A DNA stretch of 64,000 nucleotides from Branchiostoma floridae (taxonomy: Eukaryota > Chordata > Leptocardii > Amphioxiformes > Branchiostomatidae). A model generated the notes under the pieces. It was not told the DNA's origin. It did no database searches and worked only from the letters and a program-made list of their open reading frames with translations. Location of the stretch: contig NC_049986.1 of the NCBI RefSeq assembly GCF_000003815.2, positions 6,006,868 to 6,070,867 of the forward strand. The letters run 5' to 3'. A program made the translations under genes and the position numbers. This document shows positions 14,704 through 62,131 of this stretch, one piece after another. The stretch's first letter is position 1. Every line of letters starts with the position of its first letter.

Positions 14704-15462
14704 AAGCCCCCATCACACGAGAGCAAGGAATTTGCTCCCGTTCTTTTGGCTGGCCCGAAAGTTTTCACATACTTAAAACTTTCGAGTGCATTTGAAGTGG
14801 AGAAATATCGAACGACATTCAAAGTGTATTCCAAGTGTATTCTAACTATTCAAACAGCAGTATGACCGCATTCTACGGCATTCCAACATTATTCGAAAGA
14901 CTTATATCTCATTCGATGGAGAACCAAAACGGCAAGCCACTTCGAATAATGCCAGAATGTGGCCAAAAAGGTATCTGGAATGCACTGCGAATTTCTAGAA
15001 TACACCGACAAATTCCCAGGAAAAGAAAAGAAGTTTCATTCTGACGGCATTTTGGCTCATTCCTTCTCGTGTGAAGGGGATATAAGGTCCTTTTGGAATT
15101 CCCACCCGAATGGCCCCGAATGTGGCAGGAATTTTGCGAATACTCAATTCCTGCTGTTTCTGTTTGAATCCTGCTAATTCGGTTTCAGTGTGAAGTCCCA
15201 ACGCTAGCTGTAATATTGACATAAAATAGCCTTAGGAGAAATCAATCGGTCTGACGATCGGCGGACGCCATGGCACATTTGGGGTGACCCGTCGGTCTGG
15301 GTCCGAAACATTCATTATAATTCCACTTCATTTCCACAGAAGGACGTTTTCTCATAGGTACAATTCATCAAGAGATTAGTCATCTTATAAAAATTGTAAT
15401 GATACGACTCAGTGCTGTTCGCATGCTTTTCTAAGACGTTAAGTACGTATTTCTGGTGGTGT

Positions 15463-15895
15463 ATCTTGTATACTCTTCCCCTAGTGCCCTAAGAAAGCGT
15501 GCTTTACTTGAAACGTATACATATATCGGACTTAAGAAATACATCTTATTTTGTTTCCGAACCCTTGCTGTGTTTATTTTCAATATCCAGAAGCATTATG
15601 AGTCTCCAATCTATCGGTTTCTTGTGCCTATATAATAAATGAAAATGGAGCGGAACATTTTAAAGACAATAATTTCCTTCCATTTGGACATCTGGTTTGA
15701 ACGTACGAACGTATATCTTGTATACTCTTCCCCTAATGCCCTAAAAAAGCGTGCTCTACTTGAAACGTATACATATATCGGACTTAAGAAATACATCTTA
15801 TTTTGTTTCCGAACCCTTGCTGTGTTTATTTTCAATATCCAGAAGCATTATAAGCCTCCCATCTATCGGTTTCTTGTGCCTATATAATAAATGTC
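15463..15895. repeat. tandem duplication, period about 252 bp
   Basis: Two highly similar copies of a block of about 180 bp begin at 15463 and about 15715. Both run from CTTGTATACTCTTCCCCTA to CTTGTGCCTATATAATAAAT. They are separated by a 72-bp segment (15639-15711) that reappears almost unchanged at 17415-17487. The two blocks differ at only a few bases, so the duplication is recent. Confidence 0.85.
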
Positions 15896-16123
15896 CCTGG
15901 ATCCCAAGCCGGGCATTTAGCACGGAATGAGATGAACGTGTTAACGGCGTCAGAGGGGGCCATTTGGTCCTGCCGAACTCAAATCCATCATGGCTAAATG
16001 TACCGGTGTGGCAGCAAAGCGCGGAGTGTGTCTGCGTCCGTACCTGTCCTGAATGTACGATGACTACAGGCACGTCCGTTACACAGGGCCGCGTGTCGTA
16101 GTACCACGCCTACCGCCGCCAGG

Positions 16124-39300: not shown

Positions 39301-42300
39301 CCCTTTTCCTGCATGCTGTCCAATGAGAGACGTAGTACATAGTCTAGCACTATGATGAAAAGAAAAGGTGCTAATGTGTCTCCTTGCAGGACACCGGCTG
39401 TGACCTCAAACGGGCTTGTTTCACCATCGGGAGTTATCACAGTAGCAGTGGTGTTCGTATATAGTGCCTTGATTGCACTGACGATGGGTAATGGTATTCC
39501 ATACAGACTAAGTATCTCAAACATAATGTTTCTGTCTATGGAGTCGAAGGCCTTTCGGAAATCGACAAACAGTAGTACAATATCCCCCATACAGAGCCCC
39601 AATAATTACTTGCAATTAGTTGAAGCATTTTTGACAATTAAGCAATGATCCTACACAGGGACACCAAAAAGTTGCCGTCCAGTAGCCCATAGTGAGCAGT
39701 TATTACCTGTTTTAACATAGTCAAAAACCTGGAAAATCCCCATAAAGACCCCCCGCTCACGGCTCGTGGTATACATGGCCCAATTAGACGACGCTTGATT
39801 TTCAATTAGTAGATATTCCTCTCTACAGTAAAGGTAAAACCATTCATTTAAATTGCTGGTTGTCGGAGAACAAGCCCCTTAAATATCACAGAAATTCAGA
39901 GAGTTGAAAATTGTGTTTTCGTTGGTTCTGGTAACCCCCTGTAACACCCTCTTAATTTCAATACTTCATCTTCAAATTTTTGTCAGTAAAACTTAAGAAG
40001 ACATGAAATATGGGAATATAAAACTTTTTGTCATATCTTAATCAAAAGTATCAGAATAGGCATCGCAATTTCAGTAATTTTCAGTCATCAATAGTTTGAT
40101 TTTGGAGGGTCTCAGAGGTGGGCCCCAGAACGCCATAACGAAAAATAGCTGGAGGGTTTTAATCATATGGCTGTCCATAGTTCCCCATACCTATCACACA
40201 TAAAAAATTTGAGTTGATTTGGCCGACCCCCATCTTCCGACCTCTGCCTGGTTTTCTCCTGCAATGACTCTTAACAGTGCAAGATACCATTATATGCATA
40301 AATTAAATGCAAATATTTGACAGACATGCAGCCAAGACGGACATTCTTTTCTTTGCCACATTGGCCTCGGTTTCGATCTATCATGGTCGCCATGTGAGAA
40401 AGGTAATTATATCATGTTCCCTCTTGCTAGATGGATCACCAGTGACTGGACCGACTGTACGAAGACTTGTGGAAGCGGAACGCAGAAGCGGACGGTCCGG
40501 TGTTGGAAGGTGATCTCCCGAGGGTTGGACACGACAGTCTACGATGAACTTTGCAACAGCACTGCAAAACCGCCAGCGACCAGGGAATGCCATTCGGAAC
40601 CCTGTCCGCCCGAGTGGTGGACCTCTACCTTTTCACAGGTCAGTACATTCTACTAGTGCGTATATCCTAACACTCTGGCTATACAATTACCCTTACGAAA
40701 CCGGGCTGAGGTCTCCACATTTGTGGGTATATGGCCTCTAACCGGCATTCACCCAATCAGATAAAAAATCGGCGAACATCGATTCTCTGATTGGTTAACA
40801 GCTGGTTAGAGGCTACGCCCACAAAAGTGGAAACCTCATTCCGGTTTGACTATATTGTTTGGCTCGTGAAAGTAGGTCTTCGTAAAAATCCTTGGGGTTC
40901 TCCTACAAATGAAGTGGGCAGACAGCACTCTTAGCACAGCAGGAGTCTCCCGATAGTGTGGCTACCAGGGCTACTAGTTAAAAGGTGGTGGTGGTGGTTT
41001 TGTTATTTGATGTGAGCCCAACTGAGTCCATACAAACGGTATTAAACATATAGGACGTAGACAATGCAGACCACAACAAGGCCGACAGCAACACATCGGA
41101 AACGGAACCAGAACCGGAATCCGGATTAGTTCTAAATCCGGTATCAGAACAACCGTTTCCGGATTACGAGCCGGTACCGCTACCGGAACCGGAAGCAGAG
41201 ACGGAGGAGGACGGACTCGATGTTACTGATCTGGACGCGTGTAGACGTGCCACGTGTGGTTGGCAGTGGGAGATGTCACCTTGGTCCCCGGTGAGAGCGG
41301 CATAAAAGGCCATAAAACGCTGGTGGAGGGTTCTACTAATCTTTGAAAAAATCTTTTCTTCCATATGGTCCTGTGTATTCCTTCTTCTTTCCGACGTACG
41401 AGGGGCGATCAATAGCATCTGAGTTTGATTTGAAAAGAGCTGTACATCTGAAATTTTGGGGCATATTTATAAAGTATTAAGTCTTTTCAGTCAAGTCAAT
41501 AATCGCTTTGCAGGCGAGATCAATTTAGGTAAGGGAGAAGAAAAAACATGGAAAATTTGTTATCTGATGTTTACAGTTCAACTTGTTCTATTAAAATTTT
41601 TGCTAATGTCTTCCAACGATTGGTTGATTGATTCGTAGATTTCATGGCATGAGGAACATGACCCACAGAGATCTTATCACAGTTAACCCTTATTTTTACC
41701 ACTAACATACCTATGGATCACCGATTTCAAAATGACGTGGGGCTCAGAGCTTTTCGATCGCCCTTGTTTGTACTGATATTCACTATGTCAACATTCTTTA
41801 TGCCTCTTACGCTTGTATCCAAGTTCGCTATACATCGACAGATCTTTGAAATGCCATTGGTTTACGTTGAACATCCTTATTCTTCATAATAACATCTATT
41901 TCGGAATGTCCTGCAGCCCTACAAGATATGTTGTTCGTTAGATTATCATTTTATTTCTGTGGTGAATATGTCAGTGCTCAGCGCAGTGTGGCCCCGGGAC
42001 GATGACAAGAGAAGCGCGGTGCTACACGGAGTCAGACCCGTGTGATCCTATCCGTAAGCCCCTCACGGAGAGGGTGTGCAACAACGGGCCGTGCATGGAG
42101 ACCACGTGGGCAGAGGGCTCCTGGCAACAGGTATGGTGCAACACTTTCAATTAGCATGAATTATGCATATCTGATTATCAAAAATTTAGATTTTATTCAT
42201 TTATAAAATAACACAAATTTCGTAGCTAAAATACATTGTTAAAACCGAAATTAACGATTTTTTATTTAAAAAAAATTGCATATTAACAACTGGATGCCAC

Positions 42301-45300
42301 GGCATCACGAAAAATGGTAAATCTCCTAACTTTGAAAAATTGTTGTTACTAAATTTTACAACGTTCTGCGACGTTCTGCGACATAAAAATTGGTCGCCCC
42401 TCTAGCCCCCCCCCCCCTTCCTCCCTTCCGGTCTGTTAATTTAGGGTTAACAGCTTGTCTGATTAAGGGGTTGCATGGAGTTCTTCGTTGAAATAGATTT
42501 AACTTAATTTGGATCCACAGTAAGCTTGGCAATTTTGTTAGCTATTATTTCGTGATAACTAAAGTACATCATTTAATGACGAAATGTTAATTTTGTTGCC
42601 CTTCCCTAATGACCTCTATAAAAAGCAGCCGGTAGGCCGATTTGATTAGCTTCTCATAAAAAAATTAATTCCATACAAATGTTCCCGATGTTAAACGTAA
42701 AACTATGTATCTTTAAGTTAATCATTGCTATCTACCTTGCACAAAGTTTTTAGTATTTCAGGACTATGATAAATTGTTTTCTTAACGTGTTGATGTGATC
42801 CTAGTGCACAGGTAGATGTGGAACTGGCGTCAGTACACGGGAAGTCACGTGTCAATCACGTGACGGCGAGACGCGTGAGGATAGAGCCTGCAATGCTACT
42901 GCACGGCCGCTAGATGTCATCAATTGCGGAGACCAAACCCATTGTGGCCCAAGATGGCTGCCACAAGCCTGGCAACCGGCAAGTCTACAATATTTTACAT
43001 GAGGTTATAAATAAAATATGTCAAATAGCTATGTGTTTTTATGAATTCGTCGGAAAATGTCCCTACGTTTTGCTTTGCACGTAAGTTACAATTTCAAGGT
43101 TACATTTGAAACTTTAGATTTCAGTTAAAATTTTGGGCTTGAAGCTTTTGAAGATGGATTTTTGTATGAAATTTGAGAAATACTCTTTTTACAAGTTAAG
43201 CCATACTTTCGGTAGCAAAACCTTGCACTACCTGAAAAAAACTGTGATGTTGTCAACAAACACATCTCAAACTACATACTTAACATTACTAAGAAACGAG
43301 AAGAAGCCGAACAAATGTATTAGACTAGTTTTAGAATCCATGTTTTAGAAACCATGTGTACTGCATTACTACCTTTTGTATCTATATGCCTGTACTTAGC
43401 CTGATAGGGCATGAGTGGGCTACTATTATTATCAATCTTGAGGTACTGCAACAATACCAATTCCATTTCGAATCCAGAATTCGAATTTTTCAAACACTCG
43501 GTGCACTCAAAATACGTTTGAATCATTCTATGATTTATGCTTATATGATAACAGTAGAAGCCGGTGTATTAATCCAAGTTATCACCCGGTCTGGAACACA
43601 AGTATCGAACGTTATCACAGCCAAAGTAACACATAAATAGTTCTCAAAACTTTCACATTTCTCATTTCAGTGTTCCGCGACGTGTGGGGTAGGTCAGCAG
43701 CGGCGGAAGGTTATCTGTGGCGGAGTGGTTAACCGTCAGTTCCGGGAGTTCCGTGGTGAGATCTGTAACCTGGACTACAAACCGCCGGAAACACAAGTCT
43801 GTAACGACGTGGACTGTCCACCCACATGGTTCGCTTCTCCTTGGGGACCGGTAAGAAACGGTTCATACTATAATGTCTCATACCAAAGTTTCTTCTACAG
43901 TTTTGTGAGTTGGCAAAGAGCACCTTTATACCAAAGGGCTACGATGTTTGCCACAAAATTTAAGACGCAAAATTTATTACAATGGCAAAATTACAGTAAA
44001 AAACAGTTTCTTACCGCTTTGTGATGACGACACAATGGTTTCTGGTCAAATTAGAAAGATTGATGCATTCAAAATTTGTAGAAGAACTATGATCGTTGAG
44101 TAATACTCGTTGAGTACTGGGGCATCGTCGTTAGTTTAGAACAGCGCTTACATATCGTTCAGTGTAATAAAACCAGCTGCTGCCGCGCAACTTGTCTGCG
44201 AATTAAGCTGGAGTGGCACGCTTAAGGTTGGTTATAGTCGATCCAGAAATTCCGGATTCAAGTAAAAAAAAAAACACTATTTTCGAAGTTATTTTTAAAT
44301 ATTTTACCCACCCCCCCTCCCTCCAGTGTAGCACCACGTGTGGAGCAGGGGTACGGGGACGGGAGGTCGTTTGTTACCATGGAGACCACACGTCCACGTC
44401 ATGTGACCCTGAGACCATGCCTGTCATCAAGATGTCCTGTATGAACACACCCTGTCCCAGAAGAGACGATGAAGGTAAATAGATAAACAAATGTGGGATC
44501 GTGTGGCGTAATCGGTAGCACTTTGGGCCCAGTCCAAGAGGTCAAGAGTTCAAAACCTGCTATGTCTTTTGCCCTTTGGAAAGACACTTTACACTGCTTT
44601 CCTCACTTTACTCAGGTAAAAAAAAATAGTACCCAGCTTCGGCAAAGGTCGTACCTCGGATAGGACGTTAAATGGAGGTCCCATGTTTAGGAAGAGCCAC
44701 ACCTCACGCATGTTAAAGAACCCACCACACGTTTTGAAAAAGAGTAGGGGCATTTCCCCGTGTGCAATGGTGCAGATCTTTCCGTCTAGAGTTGATGATT
44801 CACTTCCTTCACTAATCGTTAATAGCTTAATTATCGATACTTTTTTATTTCCTTTTTCTCGTGCATGATATGATATTAGGGGTGAATGTCTGAATTACAT
44901 TGAATACGCGATGTTTTTGTCTCAGTATAAAGTGGGCAAAAATATGTTTTAGGTAAAAATGCTGCTGCATGCAATTTTTTTTATTCAAACGGAACTAACA
45001 AATATTTGAATGAGTAAATCGCTTTTAGGTGGTCCATAGTTGACAGTCTAGACAATTTCAATTTCCATTTCTATTGTTTAAAATCTCACGTGACAGATAT
45101 TTTGTCCAATGTACAACAAACACATGTCAACGCGCAAAAAAACTTACACAATTATTTTACCATCGTCACAGTCGACGAAAACTGCATGGACAATTCGGCA
45201 GCCAATTGCGAGCTGGTGTTGCGAGTGAACCTGTGCGGGCATTGGTACTACAAGAGGGCCTGTTGCCACTCGTGCAGCAAGGTTCCCACTACACCCAACC

Positions 45301-45407
45301 CTACAGGCACCGTCATGCCCACCAACTCTTCCAGGACACAGCGGCGCCGGAAAGTACGCATGCGCAGTAGACTTAGTTTCCATGGCGACGACTTTAGGCG
45401 TCCATAG
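22030..45407 (+). CDS. ADAMTS-like protein (ADAMTSL4/THSD4 type), 19 coding exons, about 973 aa
   Basis: Coding exons: 22030-22149, 25395-25540, 27260-27341, 28106-28211, 28871-29034, 29729-29852, 30351-30431, 31041-31213, 31677-31905, 32462-32585, 33012-33118, 34189-34315, 40431-40638, 41054-41290, 41975-42130, 42805-42978, 43671-43850, 44327-44474, 45172-45407. The phases agree at every junction. Residues 15-30 are a hydrophobic secretion segment. TSP1 module 1 lies at about 61-118 ([14 protein letters not shown]). The ADAMTS cysteine-rich region spans 119-233, with [18 protein letters not shown] and [12 protein letters not shown]. The spacer runs to about 360, with [15 protein letters not shown]. 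Then come a Pro/Glu-rich linker, a TSP1 series at 465-895 and a PLAC domain at 896-930 ([16 protein letters not shown]). No metalloprotease domain is present, so this is not an ADAMTS enzyme. Vertebrate relatives are secreted and bind fibrillin microfibrils; that role here is inferred. The intron after exon 16 uses a GC donor. Exon 14 inserts an acidic stretch after an aborted TSP1 start. Confidence 0.9.
22975..23240 (+). repeat. SINE body, tRNA-derived family
   Basis: GAGAAAGGCACTTTACACGA, CCTCGGATAGGACGTTAAAT and AGAACCCACCACACTTAT occur in the family order. The tRNA-like head before it is decayed. It lies in an intron of the ADAMTS-like gene. Confidence 0.8.
24088..24657. mobile_element. 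possible inverted-repeat transposon remnant
   Basis: CCGGTGTCACACCAAATACT near 24090 pairs imperfectly with the complement of GTTTGACACCGGCGG near 24635-24650. Flanking words for TTGCCAAGT and CCCCGG also pair. The arms are about 45 bp with several mismatches. No ORF lies inside. Confidence 0.5.
25225..25355 (-). repeat. SINE head fragment
   Basis: On the minus strand, GTGGCATCGTATGGCGCAAT then GGTAAGGTGTTTGACCC resembles the tRNA-like head of the SINE family. The body is missing, and the fragment ends at a poly-G run. Confidence 0.5.
25555..25740. mobile_element. short inverted-repeat element with CGTACGA ends
   Basis: GTCGTGCGATCGTCGTACGA at the left is answered by ATCGTACGACGATCACACGA at the right. 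The interior shares words with the element at 17575-17905. It lies directly after the exon 2 donor at 25541. Confidence 0.65.
26540..26790 (-). repeat. dispersed CTCCAT-hairpin repeat, minus orientation
   Basis: Reverse complement of the family seen at 5955-6245. It has TTTATCTCCATGAATAATA, GTGTGT runs, CATAACTCATGAACCTCTTG, ATAATATTTGG and TGTGACCTTGGTACTGCAGC. Confidence 0.75.
32240..32415 (-). repeat. SINE, minus orientation
   Basis: On the plus strand, GGTACCCATTTTTACACCTG, GAAGGTCGTGTGTTAAGTG and CCCAAGGGCACAACGTC are followed by a tRNA-like head in reverse complement (CTCTAGATTCTAAGCCGAAC, TACCGGTTACTCCACA). Confidence 0.75.
33311..33374. repeat. AT microsatellite
   Basis: Pure (TA)n of about 64 bp in an intron. 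It gives the YIYIYI frames on both strands. Confidence 0.98.
35840..37500 (+). pseudogene. decayed ORF of the TTAA element
   Basis: Protein-like fragments occur in shifting frames. A segment at 35845-36078 has [16 protein letters not shown] break follows, then words such as [14 protein letters not shown] near 36110-36160 and [20 protein letters not shown] near 36175-36230. After the MITE comes a tail near 37250-37370 with [20 protein letters not shown]. The order and spacing suggest one protein broken by frameshifts, stops and an insertion. It resembles multi-copy uncharacterised invertebrate proteins in style, probably a transposase or an associated protein. Family not proved. Confidence 0.45.
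36667..37066. mobile_element. hAT-like MITE, copy 3, nested
   Basis: The 400-bp element starts TAGGGGTGGGTACC and ends ACCGGTATCCAGCCCTA. It is flanked by CTAATGGC (36659-36666) and CTCATGGC (37067-37074), a 7-of-8 match and so a target duplication. It is the same family as 11622-12055 and is inserted into the decayed ORF of the TTAA element. Confidence 0.82.
38469..39579 (-). mobile_element. 5'-truncated RTE-like LINE with intact reverse transcriptase ORF
   Basis: An uninterrupted minus-strand frame of 373 codons (38481-39602, its first codons lying in flanking DNA) encodes reverse transcriptase. It shows [13 protein letters not shown], the [11 protein letters not shown] motif, and the FADD catalytic box with both aspartates. 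The C-terminal region, [11 protein letters not shown] then [12 protein letters not shown], is typical of RTE-type elements. The endonuclease part is lost. The 3' end, just after the stop codon, is two to three copies of a GCAAG unit instead of poly-A. An 11-bp target duplication, ATATCCCCCAT, lies at 38458-38468 and 39580-39590. The LINE sits inside the right arm of the TTAA element. The intact frame indicates a young insertion. Confidence 0.88.
40639..45171 (+). other. introns 13-18 of the ADAMTS-like gene
   Basis: No further gene is seen between the exons here. Apart from the SINE at 44501-44790 and a poly-C run near 42407-42418, it is ordinary AT-rich intron. Confidence 0.6.
44501..44790 (+). 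repeat. tRNA-derived SINE, nearly complete
   Basis: The head GTGTGGCGTAATCGGTAGCA with GAGTTCAAAACCTG matches tRNA A and B boxes in position. The body has GACACTTTACACTGCTTTCC, CCTCACTTTACTCAGG, CCTCGGATAGGACGTTAAAT and TTAAAGAACCCACCACAC. It lies in the last intron of the ADAMTS-like gene. Confidence 0.85.
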
Positions 45408-46980: not shown

Positions 46981-47667
46981 AAGAGAAAAATGGTATAATA
47001 GCATCAATCTAATAAAAAAATATCTTAGCCATGTATAAGTATATTTGTACTGTATCTAGATTATTTCTAGAATATTTTGTACATGATTTTATTGACAACT
47101 TTTGCGACGCAAGGCAGTATAAGAAAATTAACACCAACTATTTGTTTACTTTTGCAGCAGCGCAAATATGGCTTCCAGAACTATACTGATTCTAATAGAA
47201 ATTTGTTTCCTTGTTATTTTATATTTATAATTACGTCTGGGGCTGTTAGGTGGATAGCCGTCAAAATCGGTGATCAATTGTTTACGTAAACACTTTTTAA
47301 AAGTTTTTATACAATTATTTAAGGTATTTATTATGTACAAAAGGTGCCTACTCGTACCCGGATTTTAAATCTACACCTAATGTAAAGTATTTACAGTACG
47401 TACGACGTGTTATGTGTGCATTGATTGAAATATTTACGGTGCTATCTTATTGTATATGCGAATAAATTCATTCGTATCTACGATACATTCCACAATATTG
47501 CCATGTAAATATTTCTTGTGCTATTATGACGAATTCATGCATCCATAGAATTAAGAAAATAAATTATAAACAGTTCTACCATTCCTTTACATTAACTGTC
47601 TTTATCTCAAGCGTTCTCTTACTTTTGCCTTTGTTTGTGTATGTGGTGTACTGTTCACCAATGAATG

Positions 47668-48309
47668 TGTGTGTAGTGTTCAATCCAAGAACAGGAGTGT
47701 TTGAGTGTGGAAAGTTTTCACCACCAAAAACGTGTATTTGTGTGTGGATGGTGTTCAGTACCAAGGACAGGTACGTTTGTGTGTTGATAGTGTTCAGTAC
47801 CAAGGACGGGTATGTTTGTGTGTTGACAGTGTTCAGTACCAAGGACAGGTGTGTTTGTGTGTTGATAGTGTTCAGTACCAAGGACAGGTATGTTTGTGTG
47901 TTGATAGTGTTCAGTACCAAGGAGAGGTACGTTTGTGTGTTGATAGTGTTCAGTACCAAGGACAGGTATGTTTGTGTGTTGATAGTGTTCAGTTCCAAGG
48001 ACAGGAATGTTTGTGAGTTGATAGTGTTCAGTACCAAGGACAGGTATGTTTGTGTGTTGATAGTGTTCAGTACCAAGGACAGGTATGTTTGTGTGTTGAT
48101 AGTGTTCAGTACCAAGGACAGGTATGTTTGTGTGTTGATAGTGTTCAGCACCAAGGACAGGTATGTTTGTGTGTTGATAGTGTTCAGTACCAAGGACAGG
48201 TATGTTTGTGTGTTGATAGTGTTCAGCACCAAAGACAAGTGTGTTTGTGTGTTGATAGTGTTCAGTACCAAGGACAGGTATGTTTGTGTGTTGATAGTGT
48301 TCAGTACCA
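47668..48309. repeat. 39-bp minisatellite, cut by gap
   Basis: About 15 visible copies of a 39-bp unit containing GTGTTGATAGTGTTCAGTAC and CAAGGACAGGTATGTTT run into the N gap. Since 39 is 13 codons, frames stay open for hundreds of codons on both strands (VLIVFSTKDRYVC in one, GTEHYQHTNIPVL in another). The open frames are a by-product of the period and not evidence for a protein. Confidence 0.93.
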
Positions 48310-48720
48310 NNNNNNNNNNNNNNNNNNNNNNNNNNNNNNNNNNNNNNNNNNNNNNNNNNNNNNNNNNNNNNNNNNNNNNNNNNNNNNNNNNNNNNNNNNN
48401 NNNNNNNNNNNNNNNNNNNNNNNNNNNNNNNNNNNNNNNNNNNNNNNNNNNNNNNNNNNNNNNNNNNNNNNNNNNNNNNNNNNNNNNNNNNNNNNNNNNN
48501 NNNNNNNNNNNNNNNNNNNNNNNNNNNNNNNNNNNNNNNNNNNNNNNNNNNNNNNNNNNNNNNNNNNNNNNNNNNNNNNNNNNNNNNNNNNNNNNNNNNN
48601 NNNNNNNNNNNNNNNNNNNNNNNNNNNNNNNNNNNNNNNNNNNNNNNNNNNNNNNNNNNNNNNNNNNNNNNNNNNNNNNNNNNNNNNNNNNNNNNNNNNN
48701 NNNNNNNNNNNNNNNNNNNN
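48310..48720. other. assembly gap, about 411 N
   Basis: The gap begins within the 39-bp array, so array length is not known. Confidence 0.97.
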
Positions 48721-49095: not shown

Positions 49096-52000
49096 TCAGT
49101 CATCATCTTGTATTGTCAAATCTGCATCCTCCAAACTGATGTCTTCCTCATCACCCCATCCTGCTTCCACCTGGGGACAATCAACAAGAAAAAACTTTAT
49201 GAGTATGTTTGAAACATTTAAACTTGAAACAAAAGCTTACATTCTGAATCTTATCATTTGCTAGGTAAGTTTTCATTGGTTACATCGGTCCATCATAGCT
49301 GACAACTATTTAATATGTACTAGGTGTTTGAATATTGTGCCGATAGTGAGCAATAGGGTCTGACGTTGCAAGAAGCTTTGTGCAGTGTAATGTTAGGGTG
49401 CTTGGCTCCAATCCCAGAGGTTCTGGGTTCACATCCGCCGATATACTGACATTGTGCCTGTAGGAAAAGCACTAAACACCAATTTCCTCACTTTACTCAG
49501 ATAAAGGATTATCTAGCTTGGGTATAGGAACGCCCCTTAGACAGGCCCTTGAATTGGGGTCCCTTAGTTGACCAGAATCACACCTCGAGAATTAGACAAC
49601 CGACCACACTTATAGAAAAGAGTAGAGGACCTTCCTGGAGTGAGTGGATCAAATTAATTTGTCCTAATAAGCACTGTGTACTCTTCAGTACAAACCTGGT
49701 GTGTTATGCCATAAGGCTTCTTACCAAGTATGCAATAAAAACAAAAGCATGAACCACTAGTCAGTTACAACATCATTCTAAAGTTAAATTTAAAGACCAA
49801 AATAATAACACAGTTTATCTAATATAATTCAGAGTTTACATATAAGAGATGAATACCTCTGTATCCTGTGCAGCAAAAACAGCAGACAGTTCCGTGTGTT
49901 CCTGATTACTGCTTTGCCCTCCGAAGTTGTTCCTTCACGGACACTTCTTCACCTTCTGTNNNNNNNNNNNNNNNNNNNNNNNNNNNNNNNNNNNNNNNNN
50001 NNNNNNNNNNNNNNNNNNNNNNNNNNNNNNNNNNNNNNNNNNNNNNNNNNNNNNNNNNNNNNNNNNNNNNNNNNNNNNNNNNNNNNNNNNNNNNNNNNNN
50101 NNNNNNNNNNNNNNNNNNNNNNNNNNNNNNNNNNNNNNNNNNNNNNNNNNNNNNNNNNNNNNNNNNNNNNNNNNNNNNNNNNNNNNNNNNNNNNNNNNNN
50201 NNNNNNNNNNNNNNNNNNNNNNNNNNNNNNNNNNNNNNNNNNNNNNNNNNNNNNNNNNNNNNNNNNNNNNNNNNNNNNNNNNNNNNNNNNNNNNNNNNNN
50301 NNNNNNNNNNNNNNNNNNNNNNNNNNNNNNNNNNNNNNNNNNNNNNNNNNNNNNNNNNNNNNNNNNNNNNNNNNNNNNNNNNNNNNNNNNNNNNNNNNNC
50401 GATATCCTTACTCGCTAAGATCTTGGTGTCTTTCGCGGGAACTATGTCTAAGTCAACTTTTTCTCTTCTTCGAAACCGTGTTCTTGTGGAAGACCTTCCA
50501 TTTTTTCAAGCTCTTCTTCTATCTCTTGGCTTATTGCATCATCCTTTTTTGCCTGGGCCACGCCTACTGATGTGTCCTCCCAGTCTGACCAATCGTCAGC
50601 CTCCTCTGTGGTGTCATTCAGCCTTGTTTCCATGGCAGCGATGACTGGATTGGTGGAAGCCCTGGTGTCACTGATTTCAATAACTGGATCTATTTTCATT
50701 TCTTCTTCATTTGCTAAAGAATAAAAAAAAAACATGATTATATAACACTTAAAAAATGTCCAGAACATATTGAATACACAAGCAAATGAATATAATGAAC
50801 AGTCAGGTAAAAGAAATAAAAAAAGGAATCAAGGACCTCTGTTAAACATTTTTAGTTATCATGAATTTCTTGTTTCATTTCAATTTAGTGTAAATTGGTA
50901 ATACACATTTTGCCACTGGCTCCCATAATGCAACAAACATGCATATAGTTATTTAAGGACAGGAAATAAGATAAACTTTCATAACTGTTCTGGGATCTTT
51001 GACCTGACTTCCTGTCAGTACATTGTACCTAGCATGTCAGGAAGTTAACCATGTTAACACCATAGAAACAAGATCTGACAAATCTCTCACTTACTTCATG
51101 TTACACAATGCACACTGCACTTTAACACATATCCAATCTAACTTCACACAACACTGATCACTTCCTTCTAGCTTGTGGGATCAACTTTGGACCCAGGCCA
51201 AACTAACCTTCCCATCCTGCCATCCTTCCCATCTCTCTTTAAATCATTTCCTGAATCACATATTCATCCTGCCACTCATTTCAAATTACACACATAAACC
51301 AATAACAAATGGGAAATGTATGCCAAATTTTCCTACCCTTTGAAAGTAGTCTCTCTTGTTCCCTTTCAAGTCTTTTTCTTTCTCTTTCCTTCCTCCTTTC
51401 TTCTGATCGTCTCTTCATTTCTTCTCTCTTTCTCTCCCTTTCCAGCTGACGTTTAGCAGAAATGCTGTCGAGATCTCTTGAAGGTTTAACACTGTATTGA
51501 GAAAAAAAATTAGTTGTGAAAAAATTTTTACAGGTTTGTCTTTATGGCAATTTGTAAAACAGTTCGACACAACAAAGATTAGGAGCAAAACTGATAATTG
51601 GTTTTCAAAGTCAAAAGTATCAGTACAAAGGAGTTGGTCATTTCAAGGACAATTGATAAAATTCAGTGTATAAAGTACATGTATCTTGTAATAGCATTTA
51701 AGTTCACAGATACAGAAATTTGAGGTAGAGAGAAAATGGAGTGCTCAATTTTTGCAGTGTTCATAGTTCTATTAACAGTAACAAAAACCTTGGCGCCTTA
51801 AGTTAATGGACATGGAGTCAGAAACTACCCACTGGAGATGGTTGCTGCAGACAAATAGTACAGTGGCTTTCAACTGACACTGATCATTTTTTGATAGATA
51901 ATAATATAATTTCATAAATCATAGATATGTGTTCAATTAATGCGTCTTCAACGTAACAGGTGCCTCAAACACTTTCAGGTACTGTACAATGCATAGCACA

Positions 52001-55000
52001 TACATCTACAGTTTAAGCACTTAGACAAGAGGGTAGGTAGGGATAAAACAGATCAAGAACTTTCATCATCATGGAGGTTCTGAGTTCGTGGTAAAGTGTA
52101 ACATAAACCCACTGCAAACATTTCTAGCATGGACAGTCTCCTTACCTAACAGAGGGTTTGGCAGCCTTTGGAGGTGAAGACTTGATATCAAATGGCAGGT
52201 TAATGACCCCACTCACAGCTGTAAGGTTGGACACATTGGCATTGCTCCTAGACACTGTAAAGAAAAATTATAGTGAAATGTTTAAATTAATAATATTTAC
52301 ATTGTTAAAATATCCAATATGCATACCAAAATTTTTACAATATATAGTTTTGAAGAAAAATTTACAGAAAAGGCCTGGCAAAAAAGTCATGGTGCTGATA
52401 GCATAACTACAGTGTAGTGTTAAGATCAAAGCCCAGAGGTCTTGTGTTTAAATCCCCTGATATGCGCCAAAACTGTGCCCTTTTGGAAAGATTACTGTTA
52501 CAAGTTTCTTCAAGTCACTCAAGTGAAATTGAGCACCTAGCTTTGATAAGCTATGTTTCTAAGGTAGGATGTTAAATGGGAGTGTTTGAGGAGAGCCAAA
52601 ACTCAAGGACAATTAAAAGAACCCACCACACTTATCACAGTATCCATTTCAATTCTTTTAGTGGTTTGATCCCATTTAATACGTTAAAAAGTAAAATTAT
52701 TATTTACAAAATTTTCTGTGACAACATAAACCCCTTACCTTCAGGAGAAGACATGTAGGTGGCAAACTTTGGTCGACCCTCCTTGAAAAATTTCTTCCTC
52801 TGCCCGCCCACTACTACTTCTCCCCCCAACACTGGAACCACCTCTGCCAGGGCCCGAAAGGTGGCTGCAACAATCTGGTCATTGGTGTCCTTCAGGCCTA
52901 GCAGCAACTGTGGGATGAAAGGAAAAGATACTGTGAGATTTCTTTTGACAAAGGAGGGGAAAGGGGGTTTACATGTTTTGTGTTTGCAGGTTTGTGTTTC
53001 CATTTCTATTGTAAAACAAGAGTCTGAAAACTCAAACCTGCTAGAAATATTTTGTTTTGTGATGGTGCGTATGGTGTGTTGTGGGGGTTGATATGGTTTG
53101 ACGTTTGGCAAAATTATTCCATCATTGTTCTTAAGTTATATATCTACCTATGGTAAACAGTGAGATCCAAAACTACACCTTTCTGATGTCCTCACCATTT
53201 CATTTTTATTTCTTATTGTTACACCTGCACCTGGCACATACATTGTATCTCAATGTGTATATAATGGTTCACACCATACAGAGGTGACAGCGATGGTCAC
53301 AGTTGCTCTTTTTTGCTCCTTGGAAGATTTTGACCAGAATGCCCCAGCAGTTCTAGAGCAAGCTGCTAGAGGGCCCAAACATACAACACTTCTTCCTTAC
53401 ACCACAAGCTATGTGCCACCAAAAATCAAGACCATAGCATATCCATGTCAAAAGATACAAACATCCAAGTTCTGTTGCAGTACCAAGGTCACACACCAGG
53501 GGATCCAAAATTGACTTTGACCTTCGTCTTTCAAACACCTACCCAAATACCAAATATCATTACAATCCATCAACAGGTTCTAAAGTTATGCTGACCACAA
53601 ATATGTGGAAACACAAACAGACACACACACAGACACACCAAAAACTATACCTCCATTTTTCATGGAGGTAAATATCATCACAATCACACGTTCTGTTCTG
53701 GAGATATAGCACTGGAAACGACCCTTCCACACACTCCCATGCTACTGAAAACACAAAACAGATGTTACAGCTGCTAGCTGTCCCCAAGGAGGTTGAGACA
53801 GAGGGAATGAGGCCAGATCACTCCATAACAGGAAAAGGGGTGTAAATATTTTTTTAAAAACGAACCACAAAACAACAGCAAACTTCTAATCTACTATAGC
53901 ACAATAGGTCACACACTCTATCCCCATAGCAAAGGGAATCGCAATCCATCCAGAGGTTCTAGAGATATCGGTCCGGAATCACAAAGATCCCTACCAGAAA
54001 CAGTACATGCTTTTCTCAAGCATGTAATAAAGCATTTGCAGTGTCATGATTTTGTGGTAAAAAGTGACTGCAAAAGCTGTGTAAAGAAAGCCAATGTTTC
54101 AACAATCTTTCATCATTCTGTTACATATTAAAATCTTTTAAAATGTAAATAAAATTTTCTTTATGATGCACACTAAAATTGGAATAAAGATTGGCACCTC
54201 CCACAAAATACAAATCCTAAAAGTGTTATTACTACATAGTTGAGCATGTATATTCTAAAAATAATTCTTACTGGAAGATTATCACTCTTAAAAGTTTACT
54301 TCAGTCCAGTAAATGTAATATCTAAAAATTTTCAATAAACTTTTCAATAATGTCTTGAATGACTTCAATGTTGAAGGGTACCTAGCAGAATCATGAGTAT
54401 TGATAAGTGTCATATTTCTGTGAAAACAACTGTTAATAGCAGAACATTGAATACACCCACCTGTCGCAATATCCTTCTCCGGATGAGTTCAGGATCGAAC
54501 TGTTCGGCAAACGCGGGGAAATGGTGCAGCAGGATCATCCGCACGTGTTCCTCGTGCACCGCGAACAGGTCGGCCAGGATGGGGATCACGTGTTCACGGT
54601 ACACCGCCGCGGGAAGGATGGGGTTCACCTGACCTGGGATGAACTCCTCCGACCGGTTCTTTTCTGAAGAAAAATGATCGATACATAATGTCATGATATG
54701 CCATGGTGTTATACATGTCATTCCATACAGGTTAAGCTGATGCACTTTGAACTGACCTGTAGATGGGGCAATCAGGTTCAGCCATGTCTAAATGCGGTCA
54801 CAGAACACTGTAGGGGTGACGTAAGCATTAGCGCAGGCACCTAGAGCCCACGGTGAGAGATCTCAAATAAAAACAAGGCTTTAAACCATTGAAAAGCCTT
54901 TCTTGGTGGGATTTTATGCAAAATCTGGGCATTTTGGGGGTGGCTGCAGTAGGAAAGTCCCTACACTGGTAGAATTAGTTGTAAAAAATGACCTTTCTCC

Positions 55001-58000
55001 ATCGAGGGGGTTTCCGCACCCCCCTGAAATAGTGGTATTGTCGCCAGAATGGTGTTTTCAGCCAGATGGGCCAATCCAAGGGCTCTAATCAGGGGGGTGT
55101 ATCAAAAGATTAGCCGTATAGAAATTCTTGCCAAGGAATTTGCCGAGACTGGATGTAGCAGGCTATCATTTGAAGGTAAGTTTGTATGGCTTGAACTTTT
55201 TATTCTTGAGATAATTGCATATTTGTTTCCTCAACTCTCCCATTGGAACGCATGTATTAGTGGGTGAAATTCTAATGTCATCGTCTCCCCTGTACTTGTC
55301 TGCCACCCTCATCCCTTAGGCCACAGCAAGTAAATTTTATGGATGACATCAGCGCGCACATTAATTTTCGCCTGATTTCGGAAAAAAAAACAAGAATTTT
55401 TTTCTTCTGTAGTATGGTCAAATGGCACTAAAGTACCAAAATGAGCAAATATATTGCGTTGTAGCCTAATAATTGTACTTGTAGAATGGGCACTTGCGAG
55501 GTACCCAGGACCGTAGTTGTAGAAATAAAACTTATTGGATAGTTGTAAAAGTGACATCAATATGGAAGCTATGAGTGTGGTTACCACCTTTGTTGGTGAT
55601 GCTAGTCTTCCACACTAGTGTCACTTTTACCACACCAGTACACGTCTTAAATACAGGAACGAATGCCTTGTTGGCTCTGATACATGCATGTACCATGTTT
55701 TGTCCCTTTCATTCTTTGTACAACAGTCATCACAACTTTATGGTGCCTATATCTTGTTTTTTTTTCACCCATCTTGGTTTTTTTTCGCCCTATCGCACTA
55801 TTTTTGCAGTCTGCAGAGGATGTCATCCATAAAATTTACTTGCTGTGGCCTTACAATAGTTTGGGAATTACCATAAAGTAGTGCATCTTAATACTTGAAA
55901 AGGCTGTTACAGGGCGTATTCTTCTGTGCAAAACAGCTATGCTGAATGGTAGTGGACAACATCAGTTTTTAAGTTCAATTATGATGTTTCTTTGTCGGCA
56001 TGAACTTGTGCCACGATACTGTTACCGGGTACTGCCTGTCCGTCGGCAGAATTCCATGACCTCCGCTGCAGTCAAATATAAGCGATTAAAAAAAAAAGAC
56101 AACCAGGCAAATTCAACTATATCTAAAAGACTTAATCTTATTTTCAACATCTTGTAGATTGTACCCTGAACTTCAACATATAAAACTCTTGTGCAACCTG
56201 CTATAGGTGATTTTGAGGTTCCCTGAAGGTTAAACTGGCATATATAGACTGACCTGTAGATGGGGTAAGCAGGTGTGAGTAGAAAGACTCCACAGCTACA
56301 GGTTCAGCCATGACAAGTCGAGTCATCAGTTGAGGTACAAAATGTACCAGCCCCCCTCCCCCTTGTCTTAAGGTTAAGCTGACATATATAAACTGACCTG
56401 TGGATGGGGTAAGCAGGTGTGGATAGAAAGACTCCACAGCTACAGGTTCAGCCATGACAAGTCGAGTCATCAGTTGAGGTACAAAATGTACCAGCCCCCC
56501 TCCCCCTTGTCTAAAGGTTAAGCTGACATATATAAACTGACCTGTAGATGGGGTAAGCAGGTGTGGATAGAAAGACTCCACAGCTACAGGTTCAGCCATG
56601 ACAAGTCGAGTCATCAGTTGAGGTACAAAATGTACCAGCCCCCCTCCCCCTTGTCTAAAGGTTAAGCTGACATATATAAACTGACCTGTAGATGGGGTAA
56701 GCAGGTGTGGATAGAAAGACTCCACAGCTACAGGTTCAGCCATGACTAGTCGAGTCATCAGTTGCGGCACCAGTCTTGTGGCCACCAGAACGGGGGGCAG
56801 ACTGTAGACTTTGGCTGCCAGCATGCTATATGGAATACACATTATACAATCATGTAAGTGTAAAACTACTGTACATAACTTTGTAATACTTTGTTCTGAA
56901 TCAGTAACACAGAAAAACAAAATTAACACTCAATTTTTGTTGTTGTAGTTTTAAAAAAAACAGACACAATTGCAAGCACAGGTGCAGTTTGTTGCAGTAC
57001 CAAGGTCAGCCAACAGGAGGCCTGAAATCAGGGACAATTGTCAGGTCAACAACACCTACCTGCAGACTAGATATCATTTCATTCAGAGGCCAAGATATTC
57101 TACCAGACATACCCACACACAAATGTTGTTTCCTGCAATACCAAGTCTGGCCACAAGGATGCCCAAATTCATAGAGGACTGTCAAGTGAACAATAACTAC
57201 TGGGACTCATGTTCCAAATATCATCACAACCATGCAGAAAAGAAAGGTCTGTTACTACTTCATCTTTTAATGGAAATGATAAGCTATCATATAACAGAGT
57301 GTCATAACAGATGAGAATATGCAACTTACCTAAAGAAGAAGTTCTTTTCCTCCTCATCCTTGACAGTAATGTTCTTCAAGAAGTTCATGATCTCCAAGTA
57401 GTCATTCCTTGGAGAATTTGGGTTAAGAGTATAATAAGACATAAACATCTGAATAACATTAAGCTGGTATGTGACACTGAACAGTGGTTATGATGTATAT
57501 TATTTGTTTGTTTGTATTGTGTACCTAGTAAACCATCTTAATGGCATAACACTAAGGTTTCTACTGAACCGTACAAGTGGCACATCTGAACCAATTAATT
57601 TGATCTCCAGAGGACCTCATTCTGGTAAGGACTCCAACATACTTTGCAATAAGTTTACAAAATGTAGTTTAGTTCTCCTAAAACATTGGACCTCCGACAA
57701 ACATTCTATAGAAGGGACGTCTCTTACCAAGCTAAATGCTAATTTCAACCTGAGTGTTGTGAGGAAATTTCCAAGGTTCGAACCCATGAACTCTGTGGGC
57801 TTTTTTAATTATACACCCTACAGTTACAATACGAGGTGCCACAGTTGTAGCCAAACATAGAGATTCAGTCAAGCAAATCATATCACTGATGAGTTGAAGT
57901 TACAGAAAAGACACTAACTTTTAATTTGGATGAATTTCCCAATTTCATTCATAAAGTCATAAGAGTTAAATTTTGTTACTTTCAAAATCTTTCTCCTTTG

Positions 58001-61000
58001 CGTCTTAGTGGAAGCACTTACTTGAAGATTTTGTTGGAAAGGAGAGTCTTGAGTTTTGGCCTGGCGCTAGGATCTGGGTGTAGAAGTCCCTCTGACACAG
58101 ACAGCTCAAACGTTTTACACATTCCTCCTGGAATACACACATCGAGATTAAATCTTCACATCCTGGGCATACTTCAAATGAAAACGTGCAAAAAAGAAAA
58201 ACAGTTGCCTTCATTATCAGGGCTCGAAATACCACCTGCATATGCAGGTTAGTGCAGGTAAAATTGGAGCTGTGCAGGTATTTTTGGTGTCTACCTGCAC
58301 CTAACTTGCACTGGTCCATGTACTGGGTTTTATGTCATAAGTGTCCTATGATGTAGATGTACAAAATGTATGTGGATTGTTATTAGCTGCATAGACTGTG
58401 ATACCACCTATAAAGTATAAAAGAAAAATAGCAATGGTTCCTGAACAATTTTAGTATGATCCATACTTCCTAAATTCAGAGTGGTGCAGGTAAAATCTAC
58501 CTGGTGCAGGTAAATTTTCAATGTTACCTGCACCAGTGCAGGTATGCAGAAAAAAGGATTTCGAGCCCTGATTATGAAATCTAAGTGGTTAGGAAGGTTG
58601 AACAAATGTCTGAACATGGTTAACTGAATGTCAGTCTTTTAATGTTCTTTCACATCCATTTCTTCAGAATTTACTTTGGCATTCCACAACATATCAAGTA
58701 TCCAATTTGTATATAACTTACAGTATCATATTTTCTGCAAAATATGACATATACTTGCTCATTCTGTAACTGCTTTCCTTGACAGTATACAATCATGTAT
58801 GGTCAAAAGCATTTTTTAAATGTATGAAAATTGTGAATATCATCCTTAGTACATGTAATCAAATCAACATGCATGGCAATATGACCAAGCACTCACCCAT
58901 TTCTGTAAGGTACTCCAACATCTGTTCAGCGAGGATGCCAAAAGCGTAGGCATCCCTTGCATGACCACATTGCACATTCAGAACATATTTCCCTTCCTAC
59001 AAAAAAACAAAAAACATGGCAGTTAACATGTAGACACTGACACTTTGATATCTAAATAGGTAAAGGTTAGGTTAGTCCCATAGCCTTTTTAAGTTTCTAA
59101 CTGAGTGGGTTGTTATCAACTGTATGTCAGGCACATTATTTCAACCCTCTTCTTCAACTGCCTTTTACCCTCCAACCAAATTCTGGTACTTATTTTTACG
59201 CATAAATGGAGTGAGGAAAGATATTTAAAGTGCCTTCCAAGATGAAGGTTGAATACCGCGGGATTCAAACAAAGGACCTTTGGATCCTGGGCCAAACACC
59301 TTTTCAGCTGTTAAATTGCCAATACAAGATAATCATTTTACATTTTACTGAATAACAAAGTATATACAGTGAGAGGATTGGAAATGTTTGTCATGGCAAT
59401 TTATGTGGCAAGTCCCTGTTTCCATTGTTAGTTAGTACATTTGTAAACTTTTAGGTGTGTTGATTATCAACTATCTAGCATTAAAAGTTAGAAAAGAGTA
59501 CTAGTATTGTAGTGTCCCATGCTTTCTATTTTACATTGTCTAGACCACGTGTGGCCATATGTGTATGTAGCCCTTTGGAAATAACAATGCAATAAAAGAT
59601 TATCGTCATTGGGCCACACCAATATTATTTGTTGCTTCTCCGGATTTGCCCTTTCCTTTCTGTCCTTCCTTTTTTTCATTCAAATAAAAATTCCAGAGAA
59701 AAAATTATACAGGTTTTGCTATCAGAAACCTAATTTGTGATACATGACAAACTAAATGGACTAAGGTCAAGGAAAGTGTAACTAAATGACCAACCTTTTC
59801 CTCTGGTGGGAGATACTGGGGGTTGCGAAGATGACGACCTTTGTCTAGATACTGGAAGAAAATGAATTTAGCAACTACATTATATCATATTATTTCAAAC
59901 AATTTTTGTACAGCTATTATATACATGTACATGTACATGTACATGAATATAGAAATCAAGCAATGCAGAAGCATACATATATCTGGAATGAGCCTTATTT
60001 ATTATTCTACACTGTAATTCGAATAAAAATAAGCTACAGAGCTATATTCTTAAACATCAGGTGCTATCCTTGGTGCTGATTGTGCAACCAACTAACAATG
60101 AAATTCCTCAGTTTAATACCATGGGTAACTTTATTCAGGTAATCCTTTAGGTGTTTTACTATATCCTCTGGTAGGTCTAAGGAGTAAGGTACGATGTCTG
60201 TGTCAATGTAATATAATGAACTATCACATTGAGATGAATTTCTCGGTCGTATTGCAATGAATACAAATACAACACAGACAAATGCATTCAGAAACACCCA
60301 ATTACAAGGTAGTCCGTCCCAATTGTACATTGTATTTATCTACATTGTATGCCGAGAAAATACACGTTTCAATGGTAAATACGCTTGAAATTGAGTAAAT
60401 CTGGTGTCCTGTACAAAATACAGTAAAAACAGCTATTCCAAAGTCCAACTCCGGTACTTGACTTGAGTTTTTGACAATGGCTCACTCAGCACATGAAAAA
60501 GGTATTCTATGGAGGACTGAACTAGTATTGAACCCTGTGTAATAACCAAAGTTATCTCCCAGTGTAGGCACAGGTATGATATACTGTAAATGTATTTAAG
60601 TTTGCGTAGATTTAATTTTGCGGTAGCGGGAAAATAGACTTTTCGCGGTGGTTTTAATTTCGCGGTAGCACCATGCACTTTAATCTCTTACTGTTAATTA
60701 ACATTAAACCACAGCGAAAGTTTCTGAATTTACAGTACATGTTGAGAACTTTACCTCAGGAGATGCCTGTTCAAACTTGCAGAGATGTTCAAAGCCTCCG
60801 AGTCTCCAACTGCCATCCCCGCTCACATAGATACTGGACATACACACGTTGTTATGGCACACTCCACCCTAGGAGAAACCAAAGAAATATACTGTTGGTG
60901 TTACTTCAGCTAGTTTTGCAGGGATTTGACTTAATCATGCAAGGAATCATCCAGGGAGGAAGAAATAAGGTCAACGGATCAATGGATTGACGTTAAATTG

Positions 61001-62131
61001 GATATTTATATTTTAATATGGGATACCATCCTTATACACATTTCTATATATATGTACAGTCAAACCTGTATTAGCGGCCACCTTTGCATAGCGGCCACCT
61101 GACCATAGTGGCCACTTTTTGTCAGTCCTTTGGATTTTTCCCACTGACCTAAGCATTAAGAAATAGTCTACAGGGGCCACCTGTCCAACGCGGCCACGGC
61201 CACACGATTTCCGGTCCCATAGATACAGAAAAACTTCCTATTGCAACCATACGGCGACCTTATGTCACCTTGCGACGAGTTTTAAATCGTAGTTTGCGAG
61301 GATTTGGAGTTCCTAACAGGGTCATTTTGGCAGTAGCGGAAGGTACGCATGCCTTGAGCGATAAAGTGCAAGTCTTTGTCAGCGGATTTACCGATCGAGA
61401 CAATGTTATTTGGTGAAAACTTTTAGAAAATGACAGTTAGTAGTACATACCCTTTCATGGAGAAAGCTGAGGGCCTCAATCACGTTAAACATTCCCGCGC
61501 AGATTTCCGCTGACGTCAGCGTGTCAATGACAAGCTCCAGTGGGCGCACCGACTCCGTGATGAGGTACGTCCCCTCCACGTTCTGACACGTGTCGAAAAA
61601 CCGCAGGATCGTGGGATGGCGAAGGATTTTCAGTTGCTATTGAAACATTTGGAAGAACTTTTGAAAGTTGGCCTTGTGTGCAACAAAAATCTCAAAATTA
61701 TCGTTATTCTCCATAGTTACTTGTACTGTAGCTATAATGAAACAATAGTTAGCAAGGAAAAGCATAAATGTAAGAACATATCTCATACAAAATCGCAGGA
61801 ATTTGAAATAATTTCTCTCTAAAACTACATAACCACCCCCTTCCCATTTCCGGTGTTACAACTTACATGTATGACGTCAGCACCGTAAACACCACACGTA
61901 TAATTTTTTAAACACAACAGTAATACTAATGTCTTACACCATCTAGTAGTCCCCTACCTTTGCGGCATTCTGTATAACAGGGTCCTCCTTGGCCTGTGTG
62001 GTCTTGTGAACGAACACGGACACTTTGGACCCGTCCTTCTTCCGTGCCGAGTGAAGTGTCCAGTTTTTCTCCGAAGTTTGGACCTCTTCCTCAAAGTCAC
62101 ACCCTTGCAAAGTGCTCGACTCGGAACCCAT
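49096..62131 (-). CDS. SCYL3: SCYL3/PACE-1-like pseudokinase with HEAT repeats
   Basis: Exons in transcript order: 62131-61958, 61636-61451, 60868-60755, 59851-59795, 58996-58897, 58127-58022, 57407-57330, 56825-56686, 54663-54461, 52907-52739, 52254-52146, 51491-51337, 50713 to the gap, a part at 49959-49857, and 49170-49096. Phases agree up to the gap. The protein starts MGSESS, a myristoylation-type N terminus as in vertebrate SCYL3. The kinase-like fold spans about 20-265 but lacks catalytic motifs: CHNNV at 124-128 replaces HRD and GGF at 144-146 replaces DFG. HEAT repeats follow to about 440 ([21 protein letters not shown]). Then come an Arg/Glu-rich helix, an acidic DDWSDWED motif and a C terminus with [10 protein letters not shown]. 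Human SCYL3 binds ezrin and is found at the Golgi and lamellipodia; the same role is inferred. Exon 8 is followed by three extra partial copies, and the exon at the gap is frame-broken. Confidence 0.9.
49361..49640 (+). repeat. tRNA-derived SINE
   Basis: A head-like stretch with AGAGGTTCTGGGTTCACATC, then TTTCCTCACTTTACTCAG and a decayed body (CCCTTAGACAGG, GGGGTCCCTTA, CCGACCACACTTATAGAAAA). It lies in the last intron of SCYL3. Confidence 0.7.
49857..50713 (-). CDS. SCYL3: SCYL3 exon region interrupted by an N gap, apparent frame breaks
   Basis: From 50713 the frame reads [15 protein letters not shown] and then the DDWSDWED motif. It stops at 50448 just after EEEKKLT. One frame over, [18 protein letters not shown] continues to the gap and looks like real coding sequence. 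On the other side of the gap (49960-50399), [13 protein letters not shown] runs into a stop. A neighbouring frame, [18 protein letters not shown], joins correctly in phase to the last exon. Single-base errors in low-quality sequence next to the gap are the simplest explanation. Real frameshifts or unseen introns are possible. Confidence 0.55.
51337..51491 (-). CDS. SCYL3: SCYL3 exon 12: Arg/Glu-rich helix
   Basis: This exon encodes about 51 residues, of which most after the first dozen are R, E, K or Q ([16 protein letters not shown] and so on). It is a likely single long helix or coiled coil. It lies between the HEAT region and the acidic DDWSDWED motif. In sequence style it recalls the charged C-terminal region of SCYL1 more than the human SCYL3 tail as I remember it. 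Confidence 0.8.
52391..52665 (+). repeat. tRNA-derived SINE
   Basis: Head GTGCTGATAGCATAACTACA, with AGGTCTTGTGTTTAAATCCC in the B-box place. The body has GATTACTGTTACAAGTTTCT, TAGGATGTTAAATGGGAGTG and AAAAGAACCCACCACACTT. It lies in a SCYL3 intron. Confidence 0.78.
53340..53680 (+). repeat. dispersed CTCCAT-hairpin repeat
   Basis: TTGCAGTACCAAGGTCACAC, TTGACTTTGACCTTCGT, CCAAATATCATTACAATCC, a CACA-rich stretch and the hairpin CCTCCATTTTTCATGGAGG. It is the clearest copy of the family. A second partial copy lies near 53936-53975. Confidence 0.8.
55319..55850. mobile_element. PIF/Harbinger-like MITE with TTA target duplication
   Basis: The 532-bp element has 29-bp inverted ends, GGCCACAGCAAGTAAATTTT at the left and its complement at 55822-55850. 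TTA flanks both sides (55316-55318 and 55851-55853). A 3-bp TTA duplication with GG...CC ends fits PIF/Harbinger. It lies in the intron just downstream of SCYL3 exon 9's 5' side and has no transposase. Confidence 0.8.
56254..56825 (-). repeat. SCYL3: in-frame 144-bp tandem array of a SCYL3 HEAT exon
   Basis: The full exon 8 is 56825-56686. Three further copies of its 3' part end in the same donor at 56542, 56398 and 56254, exactly 144 bp apart. Each copy reads [19 protein letters not shown], then the PHLLTPST end. The spacer in between is a 31-base sequence starting GT and ending AG. The whole stretch 56825-56254 is open, because 144 is 48 codons. Copies differ by only a few bases. Each extra copy also has an acceptor (56654, 56510, 56366) that keeps the incoming phase 2 and outgoing phase 1 of the original exon. 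Confidence 0.93.
56975..57240 (+). repeat. decayed dispersed repeat copies
   Basis: GTTGCAGTACCAAGGTCAGC, GGGACAATTGTCAGGTCAAC and TAGATATCATTTCATTCAGA occur, then a second weaker copy starting near 57128 (CTGCAATACCAAGTCTGGCC). They are related to the family at 53340-53680. Confidence 0.6.
58218..58570. mobile_element. short transposon with CAGGGCTCGAAAT ends
   Basis: The 353-bp element has ends CAGGGCTCGAAAT and GATTTCGAGCCCTG. ATTAT flanks both sides (58213-58217 and 58571-58575), so the target duplication is 5 bp. The interior has many TGCAGGTA words in both orientations. The CAGGG end suggests a hAT-related element, some of which make short duplications. It lies in a SCYL3 intron. Confidence 0.8.
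59150..59312 (-). repeat. SINE, minus orientation, partial
   Basis: TGGTACTTATTTTTACGCAT, GGAGTGAGGAAAGATATTTA and AAGTGCCTTCCAAG are followed by a tRNA-like head in reverse complement (GGGATTCAAACAAAGGACC, GGGCCAAACACC). Confidence 0.7.
60584..60737. mobile_element. palindromic MITE with TA target, copy 2
   Basis: CTGTAAATGTATTTAAGTTT at the left and CTGAATTTACAG at the right, flanked by TA. The interior has TTCGCGGTGG and TTGCGGTAGC words. It is shorter than the copy at 18174-18387, which has an extra central palindromic block. Confidence 0.78.
61058..61230. repeat. GCGGCCACC-rich dispersed repeat
   Basis: TACAGTCAAACCTGTATTAG, followed by four spaced copies of a GCGGCCACCT/AGTGGCCACTT motif. 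I have seen similar sequences as common invertebrate repeats, but cannot name the family. It lies in a SCYL3 intron. Confidence 0.6.

Follow-up and report, generated by a model that had tools for sequence, protein, structure and literature searches.

Tandem duplications that cover exon/intron boundaries have been described in several amphioxus genes. In the globin genes they are minisatellite-like and are known as mirages (Ebner et al. 2010, PMC3087553). The units are reported to measure 150-160 bp in BflGb6 and 157 bp in BflGb9, and BflGb6 to carry 6 and 3 units on two haplotypes. The same paper describes concerted evolution of the globin mirages with the cluster boundaries excluded, as well as AG/GT signals in many of the repeats, which could serve as cryptic sites and lead to alternative transcripts; nevertheless, the Adh3 data and the globin RT-PCR are said there to suggest regular splicing despite the mirages. 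A boundary-duplication (Rogers-type) mode of intron gain has been proposed for such arrays and, according to a supplementary legend, one globin mirage was aberrantly assembled in the genome draft (PMC3087553).

The Adh3 mirage of Branchiostoma (Canestro et al. 2002) has units of 10-72 bp, as quoted in PMC3087553, and the papers citing it report that regular splicing is unaffected and that the array is somatically unstable. In lancelet PGBD5, imperfect tandem repeats of 60 and 108 bp overlap splice sites and their copy number differs between two assembly versions, Adh and troponin C being cited as further similar cases (PMC3902484). For amphioxus huntingtin, tandem repeats and scaffold assembly errors are reported, and the available part of that text mentions no boundary arrays (PMC2206037).

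We analysed an array that resembles these, located at the 3' end of a SCYL3-like exon in a stretch of 64,000 nucleotides of Branchiostoma floridae DNA (hereafter the window). In the literature collection searched, SCYL3 together with amphioxus led to a single paper, on a fluke kinome, and the titles listed for mirages included none on SCYL3. Its preliminary description as unusual is overstated, given that boundary-spanning tandem arrays have already been described in amphioxus as mirages.

The host gene was modelled as nine minus-strand exons, from 62131 to 54461, which join into one open frame of 386 residues with GT at the nine donors, AG at the eight acceptors and agreeing phases. The exon borders were picked by reading, and the exon/intron boundary of the array rests on this gene model. 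More candidate exons are found inside the ORFs 52707-53135 and 50451-50828, outside the joined model. The modelled protein matched the profiles Pkinase (3.1e-10) and PK_Tyr_Ser-Thr (1.4e-7), and its comparison with PDB gave 28 distinct sequences at E 0.01, one of which is yeast Cex1 (3vwa_A, 1.3e-4), which we take to be a SCYL relative; the 27 others are named as kinases of other kinds. The open frame and the Pkinase and Cex1 matches support a SCYL-like gene, as had been proposed, and the choice of SCYL3 rather than another SCYL protein is our assumption from similarity to the human protein. The features of the locus are listed in Table 1.

Table 1. Features of the SCYL3-like locus and of its tandem array (positions in the window).
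Feature	Position	Strand	Basis or detail
Preceding SCYL3-like exon, 78 nt	57330..57407	-	gene model
Authentic exon, 140 nt	56686..56825	-	acceptor ccatatag/CAT, donor ACAG/gtcagt; phase 2 in, phase 1 out; in-frame join to both neighbouring exons
Following SCYL3-like exon, 203 nt	54461..54663	-	gene model
144-bp tandem array over the 3' end of the SCYL3-like exon and the start of the next intron	56226..56770	-	TRF to 56764, exon/copy similarity to ~56770
Splice donor 1 (authentic), GTCAGT	56680..56685	-	U1 duplex -8.0 kcal/mol
Duplicated donor 2, GTCAGT	56536..56541	-	U1 duplex -8.0 kcal/mol
Duplicated donor 3, GTCAGT	56392..56397	-	U1 duplex -8.0 kcal/mol
Duplicated donor 4, GTCAGT	56248..56253	-	U1 duplex -8.0 kcal/mol
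Exon-like part of copy 2	56542..56626	-	3 mismatches with the authentic exon within the last 85 nt, each a synonymous third position
Exon-like part of copy 3	56398..56482	-	sequence comparison of copies
Exon-like part of copy 4	56254..56338	-	bears the sole nonsynonymous difference, P to S
Decayed relic (exon end, donor, intron start), ~62 nt before the next exon	54726..54786	-	local alignment; internal deletion by eye

TRF placed the array at 56226-56764, with a period of 144, 3.7 copies, 97% matches, 0% indels and a score of 1022. The similarity between exon and copies continues to about 56770, with mismatches at -80 and -83 that are both third positions. One 144-nt unit (56542-56685), used as a BLAST query against the window, retrieved itself, two more full copies (99.3 and 97.9%), a 79-nt partial copy inside the authentic exon (98.7%) and a 28-nt partial copy at 56226-56253 (89.3%). 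The four donor positions, 56685, 56541, 56397 and 56253, are spaced by exactly 144. TRF, BLAST and donor positions thus agree with the original view of one ancestral exon and three partial copies at exact 144 spacing, and the coordinates first given, 56254..56825, were also correct. The minus-strand frame is open over these 572 nt and stays so as far as 56204, a stop following at 56201-56203. Since 56825 is the first base of the exon and 56254 the last before donor 4, 572 nt is the length of an exon only if that donor is used.

The repeat unit is composed of the last ~79-85 nt of the 140-nt exon, the donor CAG/GTCAGT, ~28 nt from the start of the intron and another ~31-37 nt that are unit-specific. 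It therefore crosses the exon/intron boundary and includes the donor, and does not lie inside a conserved exon as first thought. When the unit-specific sequence was compared with the upstream exon part, its score in direct orientation was 10, where the shuffles had a 95% level of 16 and a maximum of 21. In inverted orientation it was 19 (95% level 17, maximum 24), just over that level in one of two tests, so that an inverted origin is possible. Elsewhere in the window, its best match outside the array is of 13 nt (E 0.036).

Between the two inner copies, whose donors are 56541 and 56397, 2 of 117 compared positions differ. Six differences separate the outermost copy from copy 2, and four of these fall in the intron part of the outermost copy. 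Where the authentic exon departs from all three copies, the mismatches are confined to the stretch 62-86 nt upstream of the donor, on the side of the other edge. Such homogenised inner copies and diverged edges form the pattern of an array homogenised by exchange that leaves out its edges, for which these few copies offer modest support. The diverged edges would also fit a homogenised array and not a brand new one, and the suggestion that the array is recent or polymorphic is plausible by analogy. The decayed relic reached a local alignment score of 65, and 500 shuffles gave no more than 32. Moreover, when 30 overlapping windows of the intron were scanned, four scored above their 60 shuffles and all four cover the relic (54726-54786), which falls in the repeat families D3 and D7. 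Its presence in the array's own intron points to an older repeat history.

Also in the intron of the array, a 33-nt perfect inverted repeat at 55318-55851 has its arms separated by 468 nt; it resembles a MITE-type element, and its flanks possibly show a TA or TTA duplication by eye. In addition, short ACCTGCAC-rich repeats occur in a SCYL3-like intron at 58242-58510, enclosed by a 21-nt, 95% inverted repeat whose arms occupy 58210-58230 and 58558-58578.

We consider it probable that the array is a boundary-spanning minisatellite of the amphioxus mirage kind, in which donor 1 is used and copies 2-4 are intronic. The segment duplicated in tandem would have comprised ~80 nt from the end of the exon, the donor, the first ~28 nt of intron and ~31-37 nt of unit-specific sequence, and the array would then have been homogenised by unequal exchange. 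Four equal donors would compete in the transcript. By analogy with the published mirages, donor 1 would end the normal 140-nt exon and copies 2-4 would be removed as intron; if donors 2-4 were used instead, the protein would gain 48, 96 or 144 residues and stay in frame. The array should be tolerated whatever donor is used, since its period of 144 can be divided by three and the new sequence is without a stop.

The predicted pairing with the 5' end of U1 is equal for the four donors of the array (-8.0 kcal/mol), all of them being in phase 1, and over the nine modelled donors of the gene, the array's donor included, it ranges from -6.5 to -13.3. According to the donor used, the predicted exon would have 140, 284, 428 or 572 nt, in every case in frame and without stops, and the modelled part of the protein would have 386, 434, 482 or 530 residues. 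As the four donors score alike, the donor itself favours no copy, the first included, and since they are both equal and in frame an isoform ladder is possible. These equal donors of common phase, together with the 284-, 428- and 572-nt exons lacking stops, speak for a coding array, with donors 2-4 regularly used and a ladder of SCYL3 isoforms lengthened by one, two or three 48-residue segments in the region that follows the kinase-like domain, perhaps with differences from one individual to another. We regard such regular use as unlikely, in part because an open frame of this kind is not rare by chance. In 5000 dinucleotide shuffles of the 58 nt of new sequence per unit, the relevant frame was open in a fraction of 0.297, and in overlapping 58-nt windows taken from two introns of the gene it was open in 790 of 1940. 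With a further factor of 1/3, because the period must also be divisible by three, these fractions give a chance of ~0.10-0.14 that the array is open, which makes the open frame unremarkable and weak evidence for coding.

Also in favour of a coding array, five of the six differences in the last 85 nt of the exon are synonymous and in third position (chance 0.018), a count that omits a seventh difference at -86, at the edge of homology. This bias could hint at coding constraint. Three of the synonymous differences separate the authentic exon, presumably constrained, from the copies; since only two of the three differences among the copies alone are in third position (chance 0.26), constraint on the copies themselves is not demonstrated. 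Regular use of donors 2-4 is further opposed by the published mirages, which seemingly leave regular splicing undisturbed (PMC3087553, PMC3902484), and by the lack of any HEAT match in the products considered below.

Reading through the array had been expected to add three extra HEAT-like units to the protein. This is not supported, as about 19-22 of the 48 residues per unit would come from intron and unit-specific sequence, and profile searches found no HEAT family at E<=10 for the read-through ORF or at E<=1 for the spliced protein. A structure model computed from the single read-through sequence had too low a confidence to be of use (mean pLDDT 43.1, pTM 0.29); it placed helices only in the parts derived from the exon and strands in the rest, and it speaks neither for nor against a folded product. 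The read-through ORF matched PF25520 AAA_lid_TANC1 (2.3e-10, 40.9 bits, cut-off 29.1) over four stretches, the best one of 28 residues. We did not accept this as a domain and read it as a weak match of the exon part summed over the copies, the spliced one-copy protein being without it (E<=1). The match to Slx4 (6.3e-5, 23.3 bits) was under its cut-off of 24.8, and T_cell_tran_alt (0.1) and PUS7L_N (0.19) were the other profile matches. No profile matched the two ORFs neighbouring the read-through ORF, and a phmmer search of the latter against PDB gave nothing at E<=1.

A second alternative is that the array is an assembly artefact, whether a wrong copy number, a false array or merged haplotypes. 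The three N gaps in the window mean that the scaffold is a gapped one, and the aberrant assembly of a globin mirage in the draft (PMC3087553) and the different PGBD5 repeat numbers of two assembly versions (PMC3902484) are precedents. Against this, the copies bear distinct differences and the relic in the array's intron argues for a real repeat history, so that we judge an artefact improbable; a wrong copy number alone would be compatible with a mirage.

Acceptors were evaluated with a scoring matrix built from the eight acceptors of the gene. The best of the 27 AGs in 56226-56685 scores 4.7 and is located in the outermost intron part; a score of 3.5 is shared by three AGs at equivalent places. 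This is a weak test, as the real acceptors when left out of the matrix range from -0.2 to 10.8 with three of the eight below 3.5 (-0.2, 1.9 and 3.2). Out of 676 background AGs on the minus strand of 50500-62100, 98 score at least 4 and 144 at least 3; because so many score as high, the AGs of the array are ordinary. Those of the inner units that score 3.5 are just 19 nt past a donor, which leaves the AG of a later unit as the sole possible partner of that donor. Extension of the exon would be the simplest route for the copies into mRNA, separate exons being another possible one. That an intron is being born here, the copies being separate exons with new introns between them after a Rogers-type boundary duplication, is very improbable given how ordinary the AGs are, even though each unit has a donor, each inner unit has an AG (3.5) within the range of the left-out real acceptors, and this model of intron gain has been proposed for such arrays (PMC3087553).

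A lag scan of the window detected nine tandem clusters, the SCYL3 array included, and seven of the other eight were viewed as six-frame translations, without gene models. At 47666-48309 there is a 39-bp tandem array of 16.6 copies, many units of which carry the donor-like sequence CAG/GTATGT; it runs into the N gap 48310-48720, and six-frame translation revealed no exon next to it. The region 2674-3828 holds some 50 copies of a 23-bp tandem repeat, and a near-identical direct repeat with 252-bp spacing, apparently noncoding by six-frame translation, occupies 15447-15910. Cysteine-rich open frames are present on the plus strand at 40321-45407; the sequence is presumably thrombospondin type 1-like and, in our estimation, resembles an ADAMTS-like gene.

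With a boundary-spanning minisatellite as the probable reading, the SCYL3 array is a clean natural case of identical competing donors at fixed spacing and all in frame, in a gene whose conservation is enough to tell the authentic copy from its duplicates. It could serve to study the choice that the spliceosome makes between equal donors, and the ways in which duplicated boundaries are tolerated or turn into new exons. A more speculative and unlikely prospect is that the four equal, in-frame donors form a length-variable splice array. The SCYL3 proteins made from it would form a ladder, with additional segments of 48 residues that vary with the length of the array in the individual or tissue; if true, a minisatellite would directly tune protein length beside a kinase-like domain.

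Among the described systems, the globin arrays of BflGb6 and BflGb9 are the most similar, sharing tandem duplication of a boundary, a similar unit length and splice signals in many copies. BflGb6 also shares the homogenised inner units and diverged edges, and BflGb9 the duplication of the 3' boundary of an exon. The gene is a different one, and the SCYL3 array is known from a single assembly sequence. Features recorded for the SCYL3 array are a period that is an exact multiple of three and a frame of the gene that is open over the whole array. The Adh3 mirage is likewise a boundary-spanning minisatellite, but its units are shorter (10-72 bp). PGBD5 has in common with SCYL3 the tandem repeats over splice sites and a protein model partly guided by similarity, and differs in that its repeats are imperfect and the gene is another. 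The SCYL3 array spans a boundary, according to the gene model, has a donor in its units and is homogenised inside and diverged at the edges, and its 144-bp unit falls in the published mirage range of 10-160 bp. Most likely, it is one more gene in a known lancelet pattern and not a new expansion of a protein repeat.
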